From IMG/VR virus record IMGVR_UViG_3300031766_000052, positions 1-26,884 of that record: a stretch of 26,884 nt of DNA; one strand, given 5' to 3'. The DNA is from a virus. Of the stretch, positions 8,363 through 20,354 are shown piece after piece. A model generated the notes under the pieces. It made no database searches, was not told the origin of the DNA, and was given only the letters and a program-made list of their open reading frames with translations. A program made the position numbers and the translations under genes. Every line of letters begins with the position of its first letter. Position 1 is the first letter of the stretch.

Positions 8363-9151
8363 TTAACCTCCTATAGTTGGAGCGATTTGTTTAGCGGGAA
8401 TATTCTGTAACTGAGGTAAAGTAGAAACCTGGTCTATTGAATTTGTAAAATTTAAACCATCTCCAAACACATCTGGTAAAAACACATTTTGCCCTTGATA
8501 TTGTCCGTATAACGTTGGGTTTGCTGCTATAGCATTTTGACTTACCATATTCCCTCCAACACTTGAAAAATCAGGACCTTTGCTTTGAAACAAAGGAAGC
8601 AATTCATTTTTATAATCTAAAGCTGTTTTTCCCATATTTTTTAATCCTTGAAACCCTTGCTGTACAGCTTGCATTTGAGACATTTGTGCGTCTCTTGCTG
8701 CTTGCTGTGCTCCAGCCACACCCATCATTTCTAAGTTAGCTAAACCAGTTTGAAGCCTAGCATCTTCTTTTGCTCCCATCATCTCTAATTCTAAAAGCCT
8801 ATCCGCTTGAGCTGTTGCAATATTTCTTTGTCCCGCTTGTTGTGCCATTTGAACTCTACCAGCGGTAGCCGCAGCTCCTCTTCCCTCGGCTTCAGCACCT
8901 GCCCGTAAGGCTTGTTCTCCTGAGCTCAGTAGCGCTTCTCGTTCTCGCTCATACGTTTCTTTAGGAAGAGAAATTCCTTTTAAGTAATTCGTTTCCAGTA
9001 TTTTTTCTGCTGCTTCCATTGACTTTGCCGCTTCGTCTTCAGCTTTTCTTCTAAGCTTTCCTTGTTTACTGGCTTGAGCGAAAGACATTCCTGTCCCTGC
9101 TGCTGAAAGCCCTAAAGCCGCTATAGTAAAACCTATACCTACTCCTGCCAT
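8363..9151 (-). CDS. Small internal virion protein candidate, T7 gp14-like (262 aa)
   Basis: The first 25 residues form a Gly/Ala-rich hydrophobic helix (MAGVGIGFTIAALGLSAAG), followed by basic residues (KQGKLRRKAEDEA) and an Ala/Gln/Met-rich coiled coil to about residue 170. The C-terminal 90 residues are Gln/Asn/Pro-rich and probably extended. This is the usual make-up of the small ejection protein that inserts in the outer membrane in T7-like systems. Its start codon overlaps the end of the cupin gene by 13 bases, suggesting coupled translation. The long ORFs for the medium and large ejection proteins follow directly. The assignment is by architecture and context. Confidence 0.6.
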   Translation of the reverse strand: MAGVGIGFTIAALGLSAAGTGMSFAQASKQGKLRRKAEDEAAKSMEAAEKILETNYLKGISLPKETYEREREALLSSGEQALRAGAEAEGRGAAATAGRVQMAQQAGQRNIATAQADRLLELEMMGAKEDARLQTGLANLEMMGVAGAQQAARDAQMSQMQAVQQGFQGLKNMGKTALDYKNELLPLFQSKGPDFSSVGGNMVSQNAIAANPTLYGQYQGQNVFLPDVFGDGLNFTNSIDQVSTLPQLQNIPAKQIAPTIGG

Positions 9152-9657
9152 GATTTTTTTATTTTATTAATAGTTTTTTTTGGCAAATCTTTATAGTCAT
9201 TAGTATAAACATCAGCCTCTGCTTGTTCAAAATTTTTTGCTTTAGTTTTATATACACAAGACCAATCTGTATCTTCATGTATGTAAAAAACTCTCTGAGC
9301 TCCTGCCTTTGTAAATATTGTTTTAGGAGCCTCTATGGTATTAATATCTCCATCATCCCCCAAGTAAGAAACCTTACCTCGAAGTAAAAAAGACGGATGG
9401 TTTTGTTTATGAATCATAGTTACTACAAACGAACCTTTAGGCATAAAAACTTCACGAGTGTATAAGCCTCCTTCAATGTGTTGTTTCAAAGGGAAAAGCT
9501 CTTGCATCTCTTTGGACTGAACATCTCCAGATTTGTGTGTTACAACACCTTGCAACTGTTCTAATCGCTTAGAAAACTCTGCAATCTTTTCCCACATCAT
9601 ACCTCTATAGGTGGTAATGTTGCTTATTATTTCTACAGGTAAAGCTTCTACACTCAT
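9139..9657 (-). CDS. Phage cupin-domain protein (172 aa)
   Basis: A helical N-terminus (about residues 17-40) precedes a single cupin barrel at roughly 55-140. Motif 1 runs from MPKGSFVVTMIHKQNH to LLRGKV, with H83 and H87 as possible metal ligands; motif 2 includes TKAGAQRV and then YIHEDTDW (H127, E128). Proteins of this type are common in phages and are usually annotated only as cupin; their substrate is unknown. The spacing of the first His motif departs slightly from the classical HxH, so metal binding is not certain. It sits between the Pro/Thr-repeat tail protein and the ejection genes and overlaps the latter by 13 bases. A TATCTTTG box lies seven bases before the ATG. It could be a small virion component or a sugar-active enzyme. 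Confidence 0.7.
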   Translation of the reverse strand: MSVEALPVEIISNITTYRGMMWEKIAEFSKRLEQLQGVVTHKSGDVQSKEMQELFPLKQHIEGGLYTREVFMPKGSFVVTMIHKQNHPSFLLRGKVSYLGDDGDINTIEAPKTIFTKAGAQRVFYIHEDTDWSCVYKTKAKNFEQAEADVYTNDYKDLPKKTINKIKKSWQE

Positions 9658-9678: not shown

Positions 9679-11493
9679 TTAGGGATAGCTTTTCATTACT
9701 TCCGACTCTACTGCAAATAATTCAGTAGGTGTGCTGTCTGTGTTTGTTATTGTGAACTCACAGTAATGACCTAGCACCCCATTAGATTCTGCTACTTGGT
9801 TTTTAATATACATTATAAACCCGTCTTGTATAGGTAATGCAACAGCTCCACTGATGCTATTGTCTATAACTATATTATTAGTAGCATTCTGCAAATCTAT
9901 GTTAATTGCCTCAACCTTTCCAACCATTTGTATAGCGTTGTACGGAGGTGGAGCATAATACATAATATCGCCAACACTCAAGTCACTTCCTATTTCTATA
10001 AGAGGATTAGTAGAAAAGTTTATAATAGTACTTGTTCCCACGACACTCACCGAAGAACTTCTTCCGATACCGTTAGCTGAACGCATAACATATTCATCCG
10101 AGCCAGCTGGTTGCGTACCATTATTCCGTATAAAAGCAAACCAAGCCCCTTCTTTCTTTTCAAAAAACGTACTGTCTATTGTAGCTCCTGTTTGTATATC
10201 ACTGTCTAGTGTAACACCCCAAGTAGCATCCGACTCTAAGTTTATAGTTTTAAACAACTTATTCTCTAAAGGCATTTCATTAAATACGCTCGTAACGGTA
10301 GAGTTATACTGTACGTTATAATAATTGTTTCGTAAAGAGTTAGTGTTGTGTCTGTATAAATTACCAGCCTTTAACGAATAGAAATAGTTGTTCATTCCAA
10401 TCATCCAGTCAGCAAAGTAAGAGTAGAATGAAGGCCATCCTTTTGCACTATCGCTATAGCTTAAAGTATACTGTTTGTCTGGGTCTCCCTGAGGAGGTAT
10501 TACTGGAGGCTGTAAGTTTGGACAAGTTACGTTGTCAAACTGTAAGTTGTTTTGACCACCCATATATCCGTGGTAATAACACTCGTAGCTAATAGTACCA
10601 TAATTTCCAGTTACGGTTACGGTTACATCTCCATAAAAATACTCATATGTATTTCCATCTAGCCCTGTTTTTAAACCTGCGCTCGTAGTTCCTGTATAGC
10701 TTATCTGACCTGTCTTACCAAAGTTGTGTATAGCAATAGGATGTGTTGAAGGAACTCCTGTCAACACAAAAATACCAGTTCCTGTTCCGTATAAACCATA
10801 GTTACCACCAAACACATAAGAGTTGATTCCTCCAATAGACTGAAATGTTACTGCATTTGTACCGCTTAAACAATAATCAGGAGAGGTTGGTATAGGAGTT
10901 GGTGTTGGCGTGGGTGTAGGTGTGGGCGTAGGAGTTGGCGTAGGAGTTGGCGTGGGCGTAGGCCCTCCTCCGCATAAGTTAAATCCTGAGCAATCATATT
11001 TATGAGTAACTACACCATTGTTTGCTAACAATAAAGACCCCGTTCCAGTTGCTGGCGTTGAGCCAGGTGTAGCTATATAAAACTGATTGCTACCACTAAA
11101 AGGAGTATTTAGATTTGCATCTAACCAAAAGTGTTGTGTGCCGCAAGATATACTTGCGTAATCTTGTACGTCGGAGTATACTGTTACGGGAGCATTAACA
11201 CAAACTGTTGGCTTTACAAAAGAACCATTTCCCTGAACCGCATTAAACTGCCAAGCATATGAAGTTACCGGCCCTGGAGTCGGTGTGGGGGCTGTACATT
11301 GAGAACAGCCATTTAAACCATAATAAGAACTATATGCTACTTGTTGACCGCTATTTCTTTGAGCCGTTACTTGCCAGCAATAACCATATATAGAATATAC
11401 ATCCAAAAGAGTTAGCTGAGGATTCCCTGGAAATGTCCAGTCGTTTTTTACACTAGAGTCATCACAGCGAGTAAATTCATAATAAAAAGACAT
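9679..11493 (-). CDS. Modular Pro/Thr-repeat tail protein with cupredoxin-like domain (604 aa)
   Basis: Five parts can be seen. Residues 3-66 form a four-Cys module (C10, C39-W40, C63, C66). Residues 76-168 form a module starting VTSYAW and containing FWLDANLNTPF. A TP stalk spans 178-202 (11 TP pairs plus IP). Residues about 207-325 look like a cupredoxin-type beta domain with candidate copper ligands H251 or H256, C305, H308 and M311 (ECYYHGYMGG). From about 340 to the end is a beta-rich domain with KGWPSFYSYFADWMIG and FFEKKEGAWFA, a type I recognise from phage tail/nozzle proteins. The first two modules have relatives in the 266- and 1890-aa proteins. It directly follows the glycosyltransferase gene, making it a candidate substrate. 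Likely a peripheral tail or fibre protein facing the host surface. Confidence 0.7.
   Translation of the reverse strand: MSFYYEFTRCDDSSVKNDWTFPGNPQLTLLDVYSIYGYCWQVTAQRNSGQQVAYSSYYGLNGCSQCTAPTPTPGPVTSYAWQFNAVQGNGSFVKPTVCVNAPVTVYSDVQDYASISCGTQHFWLDANLNTPFSGSNQFYIATPGSTPATGTGSLLLANNGVVTHKYDCSGFNLCGGGPTPTPTPTPTPTPTPTPTPTPTPIPTSPDYCLSGTNAVTFQSIGGINSYVFGGNYGLYGTGTGIFVLTGVPSTHPIAIHNFGKTGQISYTGTTSAGLKTGLDGNTYEYFYGDVTVTVTGNYGTISYECYYHGYMGGQNNLQFDNVTCPNLQPPVIPPQGDPDKQYTLSYSDSAKGWPSFYSYFADWMIGMNNYFYSLKAGNLYRHNTNSLRNNYYNVQYNSTVTSVFNEMPLENKLFKTINLESDATWGVTLDSDIQTGATIDSTFFEKKEGAWFAFIRNNGTQPAGSDEYVMRSANGIGRSSSVSVVGTSTIINFSTNPLIEIGSDLSVGDIMYYAPPPYNAIQMVGKVEAINIDLQNATNNIVIDNSISGAVALPIQDGFIMYIKNQVAESNGVLGHYCEFTITNTDSTPTELFAVESEVMKSYP
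10888..10962 (-). repeat. Pro/Thr tract, (TP)11-IP, of the 604-aa protein
   Basis: Hexanucleotide-period repeat encoding residues 178-202. Thr and Pro codons vary at the third position. It separates the VTSY module from the cupredoxin-like domain. Confidence 0.95.
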
Positions 11494-11510: not shown

Positions 11511-11518
11511 CAAATTTA
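11511..11518 (-). promoter_or_regulatory. TAAATTTG box before the 604-aa tail protein gene
   Basis: Minus-strand TAAATTTG matches TAnnTTTG, 17 bases before the ATG at 11493. Its first three bases are the TAA stop codon of the glycosyltransferase. No TTG lies at the expected -33 position, so promoter activity is uncertain. Confidence 0.3.
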
Positions 11519-12379
11519 CGAATTTAATTGCTTTGTCTTTTTACACTCATCGCAATCCTTCTGAATCAAATCAACCCATCCTTTTACAGTTCTATTCGTC
11601 TCTTTTGTTTTTAATGTATTAATGAAATCCAAATTGTATTTTATTTGTTTTGGATTAAATAAATCTCTGTAAGAATCATTTACAATATACTTATGCCACA
11701 CTACATTTTGAGGTATAGCGTATATATCTAAGCCATATAAGTATATAAGAAGCGAGTATATCTCTTGTTCTTTGTTATGTAAAAAAGAATAATCATTCAG
11801 AGTAATTGCTTTTGCTAGTCTTGAATCTCCAAAAATATTACCTCCAGATATAGACATCACCTTCTCATATCTTTCTGTGGTAGTTTTTTGACAGTATGTA
11901 AAATCATTTACTAGAGGAAGTTTATCTGGAGTGTATATCGTAGTTATATTTCTTTTGCTATACTGCTCATAGGTTTGATTAAAATCAAAAGGTTGTGGAA
12001 ATGCACTTAACACTGCATTTACAGGAGCTTCTTTATAAGCGTCTATGTAAACACTATCCCATTTTTTTAAAAACCTAGAATGAGAATCTACACACATAAA
12101 ATAATTTTCATCATCATACAGTTCTTTTAGTATAATGTTTCTAGCCCATCCGCATCCCATCGCTTCTTCTGACGGTATCGTTTTAATTTTAATATTAGTC
12201 TTAAATAAAAAGCTCGAAAAGAAACTACATATTCTTGATATCTCCTCTGGAGTGTCTTGTAAAAATAAACCCACCCAAACCCTACTGGGAAACTGAGCTT
12301 TGTCATATAAATCTACAATGGTATTAATTACATCTACATCTTTATACGACGCAATGCTTACAAGTATATTGTTATTCAT
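11516..12379 (-). CDS. Glycosyltransferase resembling the GlcNAc-transferase family PF11397 / GT60 (287 aa)
   Basis: The frame opens at 12454, but I choose the ATG at 12379: the family's first beta strand (ILVSIASYKD) begins four residues later, and the 25 upstream residues only read through the end of the radical SAM gene. Motifs in order: SIASY (8-12), KAQFPSRVWVGLFLQ (27-41), EAMGCGWAR (72-80), VDSHSRF (97-103, the DSH being the DxD-like metal/nucleotide-sugar site), KKWD, LSAFP, SGGNIFG, an acidic pair E204/E206, and VVWHKY with H229. This pattern matches from memory the GlcNAc-transferase family that includes Skp1 hydroxyproline alpha-GlcNAc-transferase (Gnt1) and a trypanosome mucin Thr GlcNAc-transferase. 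There is no signal peptide or membrane anchor, so it should act in the cytoplasm. The overlap with the radical SAM gene is 8 bases. Donor sugar and acceptor are inferred; a surface-polysaccharide role is the alternative. Confidence 0.8.
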   Translation of the reverse strand: MNNNILVSIASYKDVDVINTIVDLYDKAQFPSRVWVGLFLQDTPEEISRICSFFSSFLFKTNIKIKTIPSEEAMGCGWARNIILKELYDDENYFMCVDSHSRFLKKWDSVYIDAYKEAPVNAVLSAFPQPFDFNQTYEQYSKRNITTIYTPDKLPLVNDFTYCQKTTTERYEKVMSISGGNIFGDSRLAKAITLNDYSFLHNKEQEIYSLLIYLYGLDIYAIPQNVVWHKYIVNDSYRDLFNPKQIKYNLDFINTLKTKETNRTVKGWVDLIQKDCDECKKTKQLNS

Positions 12380-13280
12380 ATTTAAATATTGCAGACGAAC
12401 AAGATGTGCAGATACTATTAAATGCAGTCTGTAAAACTCTTTTACGTTTATCACTCATCCATATATCTTTTAAAGGTGTTGTCTTTAAATCACCAAAAGT
12501 GTAATCCATATGGTAATCATTACAACATAAGAAGACCTCTCCCCTTGGACTTACATGAAGCCACTCTGTGTCTCTTTTTGTAGAGCAACCGACTACATTA
12601 CCACTAGGTAATTTACTCTCCATTACATCATCCATAAGCCCTGCCCTATCTATAAGATTCCATTGTTCGTTTATTTTTATATTCGGAAAAAGCATTTTAG
12701 CTATATTAACCTGGGCTTCAAACTCATCTGGTTCTAGCTCTGGAAAGTTTTTTTTCTTGATTATGTTTGACCTTTCATTGATACCATTTATCTGAAGTAC
12801 CAATATGTCTGGATTTAGTAAATTTTGTTCAGCGTATTTAATATTAGATATTAAAGTATCAAACAGAACCTCTTTCATTCCTGTTCTTTTTGAAAACAAT
12901 CTTTTCTCATAAACAGGAGCGTTAATAGCAATCTGCGATACTACGCCAGGGTATTTATTTATAAGGTCTATTTTGTTTGGCGTAAGAGGCACACCATTGG
13001 TTAGAACACAAAGAGTAAGATTATATTTTTGTAAAGCTTGTAACATCTGCTCAAAATACCTATAAAGCAATACCTCATTATAGTGAGAGGCATATACAAA
13101 ATATAAACCTGGGTTTACTAAGTCTCCCTTTAGCTCGCTTATCTGTCTTATTATATCTTCATAAAGCTCAGGAGACATTTGACTTATATGTTCTTTAGGA
13201 TTGCCAATTAAAGATACAGGACAAAACCAACACCCCGCATTACACAGTCCATTAGGGTCTATCTGTATAAAATTTATCAT
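12372..13280 (-). CDS. Radical SAM enzyme with SPASM-like auxiliary cysteines (302 aa)
   Basis: The N-terminal CNAGCWFC (C13, C17, C20) is the CxxxCxxC site for the SAM-binding [4Fe-4S] cluster, followed by a TIM-barrel-like pattern including LTNGVPL and QIAINAP. The C-terminus has a SPASM-type segment: C232, then HVSPRGEVFLCCND (C252, C253), TFGDL, LKDIW, and CTSC (C291, C294), consistent with at least one auxiliary iron-sulfur cluster. SPASM enzymes often modify peptides or proteins, though others act on small molecules. The start overlaps the hydroxylase stop as ATGA, and the end overlaps the glycosyltransferase start by 8 bases, so all three are probably translated as one coupled unit. 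The actual substrate is unknown; the neighbouring repeat proteins are the most attractive candidates. The reaction cannot be deduced from sequence. Confidence 0.85.
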   Translation of the reverse strand: MINFIQIDPNGLCNAGCWFCPVSLIGNPKEHISQMSPELYEDIIRQISELKGDLVNPGLYFVYASHYNEVLLYRYFEQMLQALQKYNLTLCVLTNGVPLTPNKIDLINKYPGVVSQIAINAPVYEKRLFSKRTGMKEVLFDTLISNIKYAEQNLLNPDILVLQINGINERSNIIKKKNFPELEPDEFEAQVNIAKMLFPNIKINEQWNLIDRAGLMDDVMESKLPSGNVVGCSTKRDTEWLHVSPRGEVFLCCNDYHMDYTFGDLKTTPLKDIWMSDKRKRVLQTAFNSICTSCSSAIFKYE

Positions 13281-13843
13281 TCTATAATTTTATAGTGAGC
13301 AAAAAAGTTTCTATAGTATGTGCCTTGAAAATGCTCTAGCCTTCCGTGTGGACAAATAGCAGATTCATATAATAGCATATCGCCAGGCTCTAAGTATACC
13401 TTATACCATTCTCCATCATGCCCTTTTATATCTAAAGGCCAGTCATCCCCGTTTTCTTTATTTTGGCATCCACATTTTAAATCCTTATCCACAAGTATTA
13501 CCGAAGCAATATGATGTGTTTCTATCCTATCTGTATGCTCAATCAAACTTGCGCCTCTAAGATATGACCTTATTCCGTACATTGCTGAAGGCTCAATATC
13601 TACACCCGCAAACTCCCTGTGTATAGGCAGCAGCTGGTTGTGTATTAAATTCCTTATATGTGGTATATGGTCGTAGGATATAAGCTCACTATCTCCTTTT
13701 ATAAAATGGTCCTTGCCTTCAAAAACTTCATTTACTCTTTTATCCTTCAAAAGTTCATAGGAATCTTGTATAATATTCCATATATACTCCGGAACTTTTA
13801 CAACATCAAAACCTTTCTCTGTTAATTTAGGTATATCTTTCAT
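13277..13843 (-). CDS. Prolyl 4-hydroxylase-like 2OG-Fe(II) oxygenase (188 aa)
   Basis: A double-stranded beta-helix oxygenase with a complete apparent active site: H103-x-D105 (EHTDR) and distal H166 (CPHGR) as iron ligands, and R178 in YYRNFFAHY as the probable 2-oxoglutarate-binding residue. The segment from WPLDIKGHDG through EPGDMLLYESAICPHGR to QGTYYRNFFAHY resembles prolyl-4-hydroxylase-like proteins that I recall from marine algae more than the classical bacterial P4H. C124 and C126 (KCGCQ) are unusual and might bind metal or be incidental. At 188 aa it is a bare catalytic domain with no signal peptide. It is the first gene of the cassette: its TGA overlaps the radical SAM ATG, and it directly follows a 266-aa protein with 28 and 10 X-Pro repeats. 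Prolyl hydroxylation is inferred; other hydroxylations are possible. Confidence 0.8.
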   Translation of the reverse strand: MKDIPKLTEKGFDVVKVPEYIWNIIQDSYELLKDKRVNEVFEGKDHFIKGDSELISYDHIPHIRNLIHNQLLPIHREFAGVDIEPSAMYGIRSYLRGASLIEHTDRIETHHIASVILVDKDLKCGCQNKENGDDWPLDIKGHDGEWYKVYLEPGDMLLYESAICPHGRLEHFQGTYYRNFFAHYKIIE

Positions 13844-13870: not shown

Positions 13871-14671
13871 TTAGTAACAACTACCTGATAATGTAAAGCT
13901 TGAACCTGTCCAAAATCTATATGAACCACCTACTGTAAAGTATCCCGATGGGTGTAAAGTAGTGTATGTAGCATCAGCATAAGCCACTGTGGCTGAAGCA
14001 AAAGATGGATTATCGAGATATATATTTCCATAACTTCCAGAACATACCGAAGAAGAGCTATACTGTCCAAATAATACATACCCAGGCGCTGGTGTAGGCG
14101 TAGGAGTGGGAGTGGGAGTTGGCGTAGGCGTAGGCGTAGGAGTGGGAGTTGCTTGACAAGCCGCACAATCATTATAATAATCTTGTGGCGATATAGCTTG
14201 AGCTGTTCCTGTAGGCGAACCTATAACTTCCCAACATACAGACTGCCATTTAATAGAAGAACCAGTACTAACTGCTTGAGGTAGTGATACGTTTTCCTGA
14301 AGTCCGCTACTACAGTTTTGTATTTGATACTGATTAGGCACTGGACTAGGCGTTGGACTAGGTGTAGGCGTAGGCGTAGGCCCAGGTGTAGGGCTAGGCG
14401 TTGGACTAGGGGTAGGCCCTGGCGTAGGCGTAGGCGTAGGCGTAGGCGTAGGTGCAGGTGTAGGAGTGGGACTAGGTGTCGGTGTAGGAGTAGGAGTGGG
14501 CACTGCACAAGATTGACCTGCAAACAACACTCCGCTCACCTGTTCTCTAACTATAGAGTTATCAGAATAAAAACCATTGGCCGATACCACTGTTAAATCA
14601 GCATCATCGTAAATCGTTGTTGCATTTGCAAAGCTTGCAGTATCAAAATAATATGTTCCTAGTGTTGCCAT
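13871..14671 (-). CDS. Pro/Thr-repeat modular virion protein (266 aa)
   Basis: This protein is built as module, stalk, module, stalk, module. Residues 6-55 ([19 protein letters not shown]) and about 213-265 ([19 protein letters not shown]) are diverged copies of one 50-residue module ending in GxSC. Residues 57-112 are 28 X-Pro pairs, mostly TP with SP, AP, GP and VP. Residues 113-172 are a four-Cys module (C120, C146-W147, C169, C172) related to the N-terminus of the 604-aa protein. Residues 175-196 are ten TP pairs plus AP. There is no signal peptide or membrane segment. It lies 10 bases after the nozzle-like gene and 27 before the hydroxylase. A peripheral tail or fibre role, and being the hydroxylase substrate, are inferred from context. 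Confidence 0.7.
14090..14149 (-). repeat. (TP)10 tract of the 266-aa protein
   Basis: Sixty bases of hexanucleotide-period repeat encoding residues 175-194; an AP pair follows at 14084-14089. It links the four-Cys module to the C-terminal module. Confidence 0.95.
14336..14503 (-). repeat. 28 X-Pro pairs of the 266-aa protein
   Basis: Encodes residues 57-112, alternating Pro with Thr (most), Ser, Ala, Gly or Val. The variety of X residues suggests an older or less homogenised tract than the pure TP tract in the nozzle-like gene. Confidence 0.95.
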
Positions 14672-14681
14672 TTTTTATAAT

Positions 14682-17600
14682 TTAAGGACAAGTTTGAAAT
14701 CCTATAACTTGCCCGCTACTATTTAATTCAAATCCTTGTCCATTACCGTTTCCTCCGCAAGGCGCTGGATTGTACCATATTCTTCCATAATAACCTCCTG
14801 AAATATCTGCAAATGTTCCGTTTTTATCAAGGTCTGCATATAGATATGATGCCGACTGTAAACAAGTCCCGCTTGATTGAGTTGAATAAGCCGTGACAGT
14901 TGCAGCAGATGGTCCATTATTACAAGCATCTAGTCCTGATGACCAATATGTTGATGGAGATGTAGTTGTTACTGCGGTCATACAGCTTGAATAAAAACTT
15001 GAACTTATTGCCTGTAAAACTCCAAGATTACTTATGCGTATAACAAAACCAGGGGACGTTCCTAATCCTGAAGCCTGATAAGAAGCAGCTCCAAAATAAT
15101 TATTAGCTCCATTATAAATCGACAAACCATCAGCAGTATAAGCTGTGATTGTTTCTCCGGCTGTATATGCACTATCTAATCCTGCTATAGTTGTAATTGT
15201 TCCGCTCGTAGAGCCTGTCAATAATATTCTGTTAGTGTCTATAGTACTTGCTCCACCACAAGCGTTAGTTATGCTAGTATATCCATTTCCTGCAAGACTG
15301 TTTAAAGCCCATATAGCTCCAGGTATAGGAGTTGGAGTAGGGGTCGGCGTTGGAGTTGGAGTAGGTGTAGGCGTTGGAGTCGGTGTTGGAGTCGGTGTTG
15401 GAGTCGGCGTAGGAGTCGGCGTAGGAGTCGGTGTTGGAGTCGGTGTTGGAGTCGGCGTAGGAGTCGGTGTTGGAGTTGGAGTAGGTGTTGGAGTTGGAGT
15501 AGGGGTAGGCGTAGGAGTAGGTGTTGAACTACAAACTCCAGAAGTATCAATATTTGAAGCTGTCCCTTGGTTTGTCATTCTAAATATACCCTGAGATATT
15601 CCATACCCTTGGTTTGGTTCTCTTACTCCAAAATAATTATCTCCGCCTTGGAATAATGTTGTTAAAGCTGCATCTGTATAGAAGAATGTACTATTAGCAA
15701 ATGTTGTGTTAAATGAACTAGACGAGCTATATAACGGTACTGTTGCAAAAGGACAAGTAGATGGACTCGTTGCGCTTCCTGAGCCAGCCTCTATAAGCCA
15801 TCTATATGATGTTACAGGCGTAGGCGTAGGTGTGGGAGTTGGAGTCGGAGTAAATGTACAACCAGTGCACGCATCTGATTTACTTGTTATAGAGTGACAC
15901 AGCTCAGCGCTAGTTGATTCTCTATAGTCCCAAACCAAATACAAGAAACTACCACCAGATGGCATGATAAAGTCAGCAACAAATTGAGTTGGATTTGTTT
16001 GAGCAACTATAGGCGTAGCATCAGTAGAAGCGGCCAATAATGCGTTTATATCCGCTCCTGTGTTACCGTAGAAAGTATTAGTTCTTAAATACTTTAATTT
16101 ATTTTTATTGATATTAAATACAAAATTATCAATATTGCTTTTTCTACTAATAATAGAAACATTAGCAGCGTCTCCAGGAATAAATCCGCCTCCTTGTTGT
16201 CCTGTTACTTGATTGTATAACGATACAATCGGAGCGTTTGTTCCAGATGAAAACTCAACATTTGGATATGTTTTTGTTGGAGATGTAAATGTTCCATCAG
16301 TCCATCTAAACTCATTTGTTATAAAGTCTCCAGCATCTGCATTACTTGTAACGGCAACACTAACAATTGTTATTGTTTGCGCGTCAGGACAAGAAGTGTT
16401 AATGTCAATAATGCTTGCAACAGAACTGTCTTGAGTTACTGTTATTTCTACCGTATCAGTATTTACATCGTTTTTATTAAATGATAAAGTTCCGCTATCA
16501 TACACTGTTCCTGTAGTATGCGATACCCCATTATATGTTGCTGTTATAGTGTAGCCAGTAGTTGAAGCATCACTCTCTGATACTATTTCATCAGACAATC
16601 CTTCACTGACGATATTATCATTAAGCTCACTAATCATTTCAGTAAACCCTCCAGTAGGAATTGTAAAGTCTATATCTACTATTCCTAATAAATCACCAAC
16701 ATTTACACAATATGTAAAAGTGGTTGCTGGATTTATTGTAATGTTTTTTGTTGAATTACAGCCTACACATTCTACAACTGGCTGTGGCAATTGAACATTG
16801 GAATGTAAAACATACTCATTCATGTAAGGGTCAAACCCTCCCATTTTTTGAGTATTAAAAGTGTCTATAAAAAGGTCTCTAAACCACGAACGCATTCCCG
16901 CTTCTGATATAACCTGAAGCTGTTCGTTGTTATACGCACCTCCTATTAAGTTTATTACCGCTCCACGCTTGGCGTCTGTAAAATATTTGTTAGGACCATA
17001 TGAAGCATAACTCTCTGGATTTTCACTAATACCGTAATCCTCTAGTCTTGCTATTTGCTGTCCTAAAACTTCAGGTACAGATGTAACAGCACCGCCTCCA
17101 GTAGAATCGCTAAGTAAATTTTTACCAGCTAAAACATAAGATATCTTATCTTCTTGCAAAGTAAGTATATCTGTTTTTCTTCCGTCTAGTAATTGAATAG
17201 GGCCATAAGAGTCTTCTAATGGCTTAAAATTAAGAAGACCTAGGTTGAACTCGTTTAGTTTATTTACGTTGGTCTCATCGTTATAAACCCCACTATACGT
17301 TAAATCAGCAAACCTATGTGACTCTTTGTAGTCCATATTAGAGGTAGAGGTTACTCGCTCTCCTATATTTTTAGTCTTACCTACAATTGAATCTAATATC
17401 TTATAACTTTCTACACCATTACCAAACGCAAAACAATCAGAAAACTCTGTATCAATTATTGCGGGCAGGCTTGAAGTTTGTGTCTGCACGTTTCCAGAAT
17501 GAATTCCATCTGCACTTACATTAAATGAAAGGTGGTTTTCATACCATACATTATCAAGTGCGTCTGTAGGCTGTGTTTCAAAAACAATAATAGAATCTGC

Positions 17601-20354
17601 TCTATATACTTGTATATCGGCTGTAACCGTAGAGCGTCTCTTTGCTCTTGACAATGTACCTCCACATCTGTTAGTACCTGTAATTAATAACGCCAATTCA
17701 TTAGTTGTGGTGTCTCTAAAAAACTTGTAGTAGTTTGTTCCTGCGGCAGTAGATATATCTGTTTTAGTTGCGGCTGTAGCCGATTCATAAGTGTTTGTTA
17801 TATCTCCGCCACCGTCACCTACTTCAGTTACCGCGTCTTCTAAAACCGCTTCTACATTATCTCCATTCCACCAATCCTGCATATTATCATATGTAGTGGA
17901 AGACACAAGGTTTACGTTTAATTCACTAATTCTTCTTTCACATTTACCATTTCCTTTTCCTGGACCTAATCTTTCTTGTCTTATAGATATTACAATTCTG
18001 CTTCCCGCAGGGACATTATAATCTGTGTGTGTGCTACCTGCAATATTAGGGTCAGGTACATTAAGATTCATTGGATAGTCCAATATAGGATAATCTCCCG
18101 CATCGTTTTCAATTGCTGTATTAGAGCCAGGCGTTATTATATCATTATCCTCTTTAACTGTAGAAAAATTATTTGGATTAATTTTCATATATGTTCCAGA
18201 AGGAACTGATGAACCATTTGAAGGAATAATAAAGTCTTCTTCTTTAGTTTCTTTTTCTAAAACTGTAGCTTCTACACATCTAAGTATAGGTCCATTACTG
18301 TCAGACTTAACAAAGTATCTATCTCCCTCTTCTACCTTATTAGCGCTCTCACCTTCTAGTAAAAAGTATGTTGCATTACTTCCAGGGTCTTCAAAATAAA
18401 TACTAGAGTAAATAGTATCGTATGTAGTCTCTGTTGGTTTTAATACAAACTTATATCTAGTAGCCCAGCTTGGAGCTAACTGCTGAGGTGGTATAGTAAC
18501 CTGTAATTCGTTTTTATTTATAGAGTTAGCGCAAGGTATCTGTATCGTATTATTTGGGCTTACAAGCGCCGTAGATGAGCGGTTAAATTCATCCATATAT
18601 ACTATACCAACTTCATAACCTCTGTTACTATGAAGACTTCTAGCTGTATCAGTATTTCTAAAACTAGCAGTTGCACTGTTTACTTCATAAAATTCATAAG
18701 CGTTATTAGCCCCGTCAACATAGTTCATTGCTATCAGTTGAAGACCAATAGTGTTGCTTGCTGGAGACGATATAATTGCAATAGGTTCTCCGGTATTACT
18801 TATACCACTTGCTGTTTTTGTATATGTACCTAATGTTGATGGCAACGCACAATTAACCTGGTCAGTCAAAGTAGTTCCATTACAAGCGTCAGTTACAGTT
18901 TGTATATTTGCAATTGTTCCTATTTTCTCAATAAAATCAGTGCTTGTAGCAAGAGAGTATGCGTTAGGAAAATATGTTGGCAAAGTATAATCAAATACTA
19001 TGTCGATATTTGAAGTTGTTGCTCCAGGTGTAGTTCCGGTAAATTGACCGTGTACTATCGTAAAGTCTAAAGTTATGCTAGAACCAGCGGTTAATTCCAA
19101 TGTAGTTCCATCTTGATTTGATAAATCAAAATATACTATAGAATTATTTATTGTAGAAGGAGTTGGTCCAATCGAGTAATATCCAGGGCCAGTCGAGTCT
19201 ATCAAGTCAGATGTAGCTATTGTCGTACTATTTAAACTGGCAAAAAACTCTAATCTTAAATCTTGATTAAACTTATCTTTTAAATTATATCCTTCTTTAT
19301 AGTTTCCGTATACGAGCCTATTGCCCATAACTGTCTGAGCCTTAGCTATATTAGGTACGTTGTCGTATAGTCTTAGTATTTCTGAATCAGGTAAAAGAGT
19401 AAATATCTTTCTGTCATCAAAGGTATATGTATAGTCTGTATTATCAGAATACCCTAAATTAGACTTGTCAAGAAACTCTATAACCTTTATATTATTAGTT
19501 GTAGACTCTTTAAATAAAAGCTCTATACCTGTGACTAAAGAACTTCCTGTATTAAAAGTTATTATTGCAGCGTTCTTGGTATTTTTCATACCCTCATTTA
19601 AATAGCTGTTATAACTAAAGTCAAATGATGAAGGTGTAAATGCGTCTTCACTAAACTGTGAAGTTGCAGAATATTGATTATCGTTATACTTATACCTATA
19701 AGCAAAAGATATAAACCTTTCCTCTAAAAAGTCGTCTTGTTGCCCTTGAAGATTTAATGTTTGAATAGATGGAGCTGCGATAGGAGGTCTCTTAATTACC
19801 AATAAAGCCTCAGCAGAAAAACCATCAAAGTAAGAAGGTGATGAAGCGGGAGCATTGTAACTCCTGTTTATATTTATATATCTAGGTGGATTTGTATTGT
19901 CTGTAAAAAACAGTAAATCATCTATTAAATTTACACCTGTAATTAAATGATAAGGACTAAAGTTTAGTGTGGTTTTTAAGTTAGTACCGTCATTTGCACT
20001 TACTACATTATAATTTGTGTTGGCAGTATTAGTATTATAAGAAACTATTAAGTCTAGTTTATTGGTTGGGCTATTTGTAAAAGCTGGGTCATGAACAAAC
20101 CAATATATGGTCTCGTTAGCCCCATCTTCAAAAGCTCCAATACACCTAGCATTATTGCTTAATTCGATATTATCAAACATTAATGTTGTAAGAATAGTAT
20201 TACCCTTAGAGTTCTCTACAGAACCAACTTCAGAGCCTTCGGTAGAACCAAGTCTTACATTTAACGCATCAATATACTCACCATTTGGAACAAGCCTTTC
20301 ATCAAGGCTTTTGTTCATACGGCCAGCAATAAAATTTCTTTGAATGTTTGCCAT
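14682..20354 (-). CDS. Tail nozzle / stabilisation protein with Pro/Thr-repeat C-terminal extension (1890 aa)
   Basis: The N-terminus ([20 protein letters not shown], then [15 protein letters not shown]) is characteristic of the crAss-like and P22 gp10-like stabilisation or nozzle proteins that close the short tail. The core runs to about residue 1185, including [15 protein letters not shown] near its end. Beyond it lie beta-rich domains starting at [12 protein letters not shown] (about 1190-1500), six TP pairs (1502-1513), a module starting VTSYRW (1514-1608), 33 TP pairs plus IP (1611-1678), and two further modules (1679 to about 1800 and about 1809-1890). The extension, about 700 residues, is probably a surface-exposed appendage; the VTSY module is paralogous to one in the 604-aa protein. 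Gaps to its neighbours are 2 and 10 bases. The nozzle call is by family resemblance; the function of the extension is inferred. Confidence 0.8.
15321..15524 (-). repeat. Uninterrupted (TP)33-IP tract with 12-bp tandem units
   Basis: 33 Thr-Pro pairs (15327-15524) followed by IP (15321-15326), residues 1611-1678 of the nozzle-like protein. Within it, 15379-15474 is eight head-to-tail 12-bp units of two sequence types on the plus strand: A = GTCGGTGTTGGA, B = GTCGGCGTAGGA, in the order A A B B A A B A. Exact repetition at synonymous sites implies recent unit duplication. Confidence 0.97.
15816..15851 (-). repeat. (TP)6 tract of the nozzle-like protein
   Basis: Encodes residues 1502-1513, joining the beta-rich region to the VTSYRW module. 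Confidence 0.95.

Follow-up and report, generated by a model that had tools for sequence, protein, structure and literature searches.

Hydroxyproline-linked glycosylation is known mainly from eukaryotes, among them plants, algae and protists (PMC8724618). In the Skp1 pathway, the transferase Gnt1 acts after the prolyl hydroxylase PhyA and glycosylates hydroxyproline, and a Trypanosoma cruzi enzyme acts on Thr/Ser (both named in PMC6939170; see also PMC8724618). Prolyl 4-hydroxylase (P4H) genes are also abundant in a survey of Baltic Sea viruses, where their use by viruses 'remains cryptic' (PMC9301287). Our searches of the open-access literature turned up no report connecting phage P4H, PF11397 or HPAT proteins with virion repeats.

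The DNA examined here (the window) is the whole 26,884-nucleotide stretch of a viral record, and appears to be a late module of a crAss-like podovirus that includes a muzzle protein with PF25729 (E = 3e-16) and a large virion structural protein. The Pfam crAss capsid family matches the major capsid protein at E = 0.18 only. Relatives of the major capsid gene occur in phages of Flavobacterium, Cellulophaga and Maribacter, and this is probably a marine crAss-like phage whose hosts are Flavobacteria. Its nearest sequenced capsid relatives carry neither the repeats nor the gene cassette described below.

Placed between virion proteins that bear (Pro-Thr)n runs is a unit of three overlapping genes encoding a 2-oxoglutarate (2OG)-Fe(II) oxygenase, a radical-SAM/SPASM protein and, as the last gene, a PF11397 glycosyltransferase (Table 1). 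We propose, with a probability of roughly 70%, that these genes are part of a phage-encoded system for modifying the phage's own virion, in which Pro-X repeats are hydroxylated and O-glycosylated. The support for this reading is computational, and nearly all of the sequences are metagenomic. It comprises the families and folds of the enzymes, the overlap of their genes, their location between virion genes, the conservation of the trio and the covariation of repeats with glycosyltransferases, all of which were computed here.

Table 1. The three-gene cassette and the flanking virion genes in the window.
Feature	Position	Strand	Size	Basis
PF11397 glycosyltransferase, soluble, predicted GT-A fold, D98-S-H100 site	11516..12379	minus	287 aa	Pfam, AF2, Foldseek
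Radical SAM/SPASM protein, CxxxCxxC	12372..13280	minus	302 aa	PF04055 4e-10, PF13186 1e-11
2OG-Fe(II) oxygenase, triad H103/D105/H166	13277..13843	minus	188 aa	AF2, Foldseek, alignment with relatives
Protein with two Pro-Thr-rich runs, candidate substrate	13871..14671	minus	266 aa	Repeat listing, PHROG 15511
Virion structural protein, candidate substrate	14682..20354	minus	1890 aa	PHROG E = 5e-234 over residues 5-741
Muzzle-like virion protein, GPTPTP...IPTSP run, candidate substrate	9679..11493	minus	604 aa	PF25729 crAss_MUZ_C E = 3.2e-16

The glycosyltransferase ORF was read from an ATG at 12379 to the stop codon at 11516. A GTG at 12454 would give a protein of 312 aa, and the ATG is favoured because it overlaps the stop codon of the upstream radical SAM gene by 8 nt. 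A preliminary description of this gene had assigned it to the Skp1-type (GT60-like) family PF11397 from a series of short motifs, all of which are present in the order of that family: VSIASY (residues 7-12 of the 287-aa protein), EAMGCGWAR (72-80), VDSHSRF (97-103), WD (107-108), E204/E206 and VVWHKY (226-231). Across 18 aligned phage homologues, residues D98 and H100 never vary, and the same holds for R80, F103 and D108. In a profile search PF11397 is the top Pfam family, with E = 3.6e-33 and 115.9 bits where the gathering cut-off is 21, and two close phage relatives score 122-123 bits against it; as judged by these profile scores, membership of the family is far beyond chance. The next family is the generic GT2 family PF00535 at 27.4 bits, so the better match to GT2 that the preliminary description had named as counting against its assignment did not occur. 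A GT2-type role in polysaccharide synthesis is ruled out by this weaker profile match and by the position of the gene in a virion module. Three other phage records and one Stenotrophomonas maltophilia contig carry PF11397 relatives, and the family is therefore not confined to eukaryotes. We also considered a bacterial origin for the gene and rejected it, as two scans of genome contigs gave a single distant S. maltophilia relative with 22% identity.

An AlphaFold2 model of the glycosyltransferase, built from the 18 phage homologues, has the GT-A fold (pLDDT 86, pTM 0.88), as had been anticipated. The top PDB matches found by Foldseek are GalNAc-T2, PGANT9 and TgGalNAc-T3, with E-values from 8.5e-11, and the predicted fold is thus nearest to polypeptide GalNAc-transferases; sequence identity to the solved members of this type is only about 14%. 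In a profile alignment (E = 0.004, weak when taken alone) the phage DSH lies over the DxH metal motif (DAH) of Toxoplasma GalNAc-T3, and a phage Trp-His lies over the late Gly-His of the same enzyme.

A 4-nt overlap joins the oxygenase gene to the radical SAM gene. Its 188-aa product has no Pfam match, and no P4H/PF13640 domain is recognised in it. The AlphaFold2 model (pLDDT 95) is that of a 2OG-Fe(II) oxygenase, for which the best Foldseek E-values are to the Pseudomonas putida P4H (4j25), a Dictyostelium PHD (6t8m) and PHD2, with a TM-score of 0.64 that is common to many 2OG enzymes. The lysine halogenase HalA exceeds these prolyl hydroxylases in TM-score (0.71). Because the TM-scores are moderate and the halogenase scores higher, the fold alone is no proof of prolyl hydroxylation. 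The HxD..H triad of this type of domain is kept in 90-92 of 92 relatives. The 'ferrochelatase' label carried by matching PHROGs (phrog_2954 and phrog_3531) was rejected on the basis of the triad and the prolyl-hydroxylase-like fold; cyanophage homologues are also named ferrochelatase, and the label looks wrong there as well. Neither the oxygenase profile nor the HPAT-like profile had a credible match among PDB sequences.

Among the candidate substrates, the 1890-aa protein has a TPTPTP run of 69 residues, the longest in the three flanking proteins, and a second, shorter one. Its C-terminal part shares PHROG 15511 with the 266-aa protein. Long plus-strand ORFs at 14318-14596 and 15145-15594, with translations of the GVGVGV or RRRRR kind, read the Pro-Thr repeats in antisense and are not genes. 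A 172-aa tail-fibre-like gene of the window (9139-9657) is replaced in several relatives by a gene of 136-140 aa (for example L003:10779-11189), and the homologous position carries an acetyltransferase annotation in the Manatee Spring phage.

Sister contigs share the gene order tail protein, Pro-Thr protein, oxygenase, radical SAM protein, glycosyltransferase and muzzle. Sister-contig oxygenases are 380-389 aa long, and the window protein aligns with their C-terminal half. Their N-terminal half is that of a canonical, collagen-type P4H, with PF13640 and a PDB match to a Bacillus P4H (E = 2.4e-27), and in this half H92, D94, H161 and the 2OG-binding K171 are invariant in 92 of 92 relatives. The window oxygenase lacks this half by what appears to be a clean loss; a second contig agrees, and an assembly effect is possible. 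Because the canonical half is absent, hydroxylation in the window would depend on a domain that Pfam does not recognise.

A scan for the two-domain protein gave 161 relatives, 80 of which were kept and examined. A virion protein with at least eight Pro in 24 residues adjoins the two-domain oxygenase in 79 of these 80, the sole exception (L032) being a contig that starts immediately upstream of that gene. Another 31 contigs, examined under thresholds set in advance, show the arrangement in 30 cases, and the remaining contig is truncated. A second scan took as its anchor the end of the tail protein that has no repeats; repeats were found in 12/12 loci with the hydroxylase versus 1/17 without it, for which the Fisher value (p = 2.5e-7) is inflated by kinship and is not to be taken at face value because the tree holds only 1-2 independent events. 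When loci are placed on the tree, repeats are present in 48/48 that bear the P4H versus 1/14 without it, and within the clade the two are gained or lost together. The preliminary description had suggested protein glycosylation from the mere proximity of repeat tail proteins, and this idea is now stronger because of the neighbouring oxygenase and the conservation of the cassette in relatives.

The association does not extend to every phage P4H, as the single-domain enzymes of six named phages are without Pro-rich neighbours. The trio does recur in an unrelated lineage (L016, with a Peptidase_S74 tail fibre), which has PTVTPTAAPT repeats, a PF11397-PF04488 fusion and a P4H. Next to the glycosyltransferase cluster of that contig, L016:6538-7257 encodes a 12-proline run followed by what by eye resembles a Hint/intein-type domain (CFLYGTEIKMADG ... 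VHN). Three other contigs carry PF11397 proteins with neither a P4H nor clear Pro repeats; these transferases are 407-408 aa long (L148:15566-16789, L149:18012-19235 and L166:9356-10582), and their neighbours are Ser/Thr/Asn/Cys-rich proteins of about 740-780 aa. They weigh against hydroxyproline as the sole acceptor and possibly represent a second, Thr/Ser-directed branch.

In relatives, the slot after the hydroxylase holds different sugar enzymes. Its contents are a radical SAM protein with PF11397, a short PF04488 glycosyltransferase, a PF11397-PF04488 fusion, an O-FucT protein with PF11397 and an epimerase, an O-FucT protein with a carbamoyltransferase, or a protein of 277 aa that scores narrowly above the cut-off of the hydroxyproline O-arabinosyltransferase (HPAT) family PF23452 (25.2 versus 23.9 bits; 2 of 10 members match). 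Genes for O-FucT, a carbamoyltransferase and an NAD-dependent epimerase lie in the slot at L062:9738-13690 and L099:2476-6876, suggesting more elaborate sugars at loci of this kind. Wherever the radical SAM protein is present, it accompanies the PF11397 subtype found in the window, and this is the case at several separate places on the tree, so the two appear to travel as a unit.

The repeats change with the enzyme. Loci with the radical SAM protein and PF11397 have strictly alternating P-X repeats in which 65-86% of the non-Pro residues are Thr/Ser and PP/P is at most 0.07. PPX triplets are typical of PF04488 loci, in which PP/P is 0.24 or more wherever there are repeats, and the repeats of O-FucT plus carbamoyltransferase loci are mostly P-A/P-V. 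HPAT-like loci are mixed (PP/P 0.01-0.41), so that a strict rule of one glycosyltransferase and one repeat motif is only partly true. The hydroxylase tree contains five independent pairs that differ by gain or loss of PF04488, and PP content follows in 4.5 pairs on average and is opposite in none (p = 0.0625, the floor for five pairs). The PP/P threshold for this comparison was picked after the data had been seen, and cut-offs of 0.15-0.3 give the same direction.

These observations are consistent with a post-translational modification unit that would act on the phage's own virion proteins. In the proposed first step, prolines within Pro-X runs of tail and muzzle proteins would be hydroxylated, presumably in the cytoplasm and before assembly, by the 2OG-Fe(II) oxygenase. 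Most relatives have this oxygenase in a two-domain form that includes the canonical P4H half, and the window keeps the second half only. The PF11397 glycosyltransferase would then use a nucleotide sugar bound at the DSH site to add a HexNAc to the repeats, and by family analogy this HexNAc may be GlcNAc. We consider it an even chance that the acceptor is hydroxyproline, by analogy with Skp1 Gnt1; Thr/Ser of the same repeats, the acceptor type of the T. cruzi mucin enzyme, is a possible but less favoured alternative. The radical SAM protein is an obligate partner of this glycosyltransferase subtype and may contribute an extra step. The likely outcome would be rigid stalks with a coat of sugars, which would shield the tail surface or make it more diverse. 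That the trio is kept while the sugar enzyme is swapped suggests that phages glycosylate their own tails, in a mode so far mainly eukaryotic. A more general proposal, to which we give somewhat less than even odds, is that marine phages of Bacteroidota have a modular hydroxyproline O-glycosylation system, in which a tandem prolyl hydroxylase and an exchangeable slot for GT60-, GT32-, HPAT- or O-FucT-type transferases serve Pro-rich tail and muzzle arrays whose code is rewritten with each swap, diversifying virion surfaces.

The alternative that survives best, though we judge it unlikely, is direct, mucin-type glycosylation of Thr/Ser residues in the Pro-Thr repeats by the PF11397 enzyme, hydroxyproline being no acceptor and the oxygenase having a separate or accessory role. 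The nearest solved folds are indeed Thr/Ser GalNAc-transferases, and the T. cruzi mucin enzyme belongs to GT60 (PMC6939170, PMC8724618). The repeats found with the radical SAM protein and PF11397 also have the highest Thr/Ser share of any in the slot series, one locus (L108) combines PF11397 with Thr-rich repeats (TPTATPTQ) and lacks a neighbouring P4H, and the canonical P4H half is missing from the window itself. However, a P4H-type protein is retained in every lineage with the two-domain cassette, and under other glycosyltransferases Pro is retained and the non-Pro letters shift towards Val/Ala (L044, L064 and L062). In addition, one of the alternative glycosyltransferases matches a hydroxyproline-specific family.

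Modification of the host is a more improbable explanation. The oxygenase would hydroxylate a host protein and the glycosyltransferase would alter a host glycan or surface, changing metabolism or blocking superinfection. The P. putida P4H that is nearest in fold to the oxygenase has also been solved with EF-Tu, phage glycosyltransferases are often labelled moron or auxiliary genes, and the single-domain P4Hs of other phages lie away from Pro-rich repeats. Such a role is difficult to reconcile with a cassette of overlapping genes inside a late structural module, with its near-universal linkage to Pro-rich virion proteins and with the covariation of glycosyltransferase type and repeat type; moreover, the closest solved folds have polypeptide acceptors. 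Least probable by our estimate is a coincidence of flexible linkers, spread by repeat slippage, with unrelated enzyme genes inserted as mobile elements at a hot spot of variation. In its favour, slippage readily makes low-complexity Pro-Thr runs, tail loci are mosaic and the co-occurrence of P4H and repeats in the clade amounts to 1-2 independent events. Coincidence would not account for the distribution of repeats between loci with and without the P4H, for their persistence though the letters change, for the same trio in an unrelated phage or for glycosyltransferase swaps that shift repeat grammar in one direction.

Modification of the phage's own virion therefore remains our preferred reading, and the larger finding, beyond the family of one glycosyltransferase, is a conserved cassette with matched repeats. 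Its presence across more than 100 viral contigs, with the likely substrates adjoining, offers a concrete and testable role for viral prolyl hydroxylases. The matched natural set of transferases and acceptor repeats could reveal acceptor rules and help to make glycosylated Pro-rich proteins in bacteria.

Several described systems resemble the proposed one in part. The P4H of Chlorella virus PBCV-1 (Eriksson 1999, cited in PMC9301287) is likewise encoded by a virus and is presumed to act on viral proteins; it belongs to a eukaryotic virus and is not linked to a PF11397 glycosyltransferase in the sources consulted. Hydroxyproline O-glycosylation of plant extensins by P4H and HPAT has in common with the phage loci the Pro-rich repeats, the P4H and, in sister phages, the PF23452 match, whereas the window has no HPAT and the sister match is weak. 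Mucin-type GalNAc- and GlcNAc-transferases (GT27; GT60 in T. cruzi) share the GT-A fold, the DxH metal motif and Pro/Thr-rich polypeptide acceptors, the phage acceptor being predicted, but the phage enzyme lacks a lectin domain and is distant in sequence from the solved members. The Skp1 pathway of Dictyostelium and Toxoplasma (PhyA and the GT60 enzyme Gnt1, with GT32 and other transferases acting later) also combines a cytoplasmic 2OG prolyl hydroxylase with a soluble PF11397/GT60-type transferase, and in Toxoplasma it includes a GT32-type enzyme (PMC6939170), as do the phage slots that hold PF04488 glycosyltransferases. Skp1 carries one glycan on one proline, whereas the phages lack Skp1 and have virion proteins with extended Pro-X arrays, glycosyltransferases that can be exchanged and a partner of the radical SAM type. 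If the proposed function is correct, the cassette would be the counterpart, in viruses of prokaryotes, of Skp1, extensin and mucin glycosylation.
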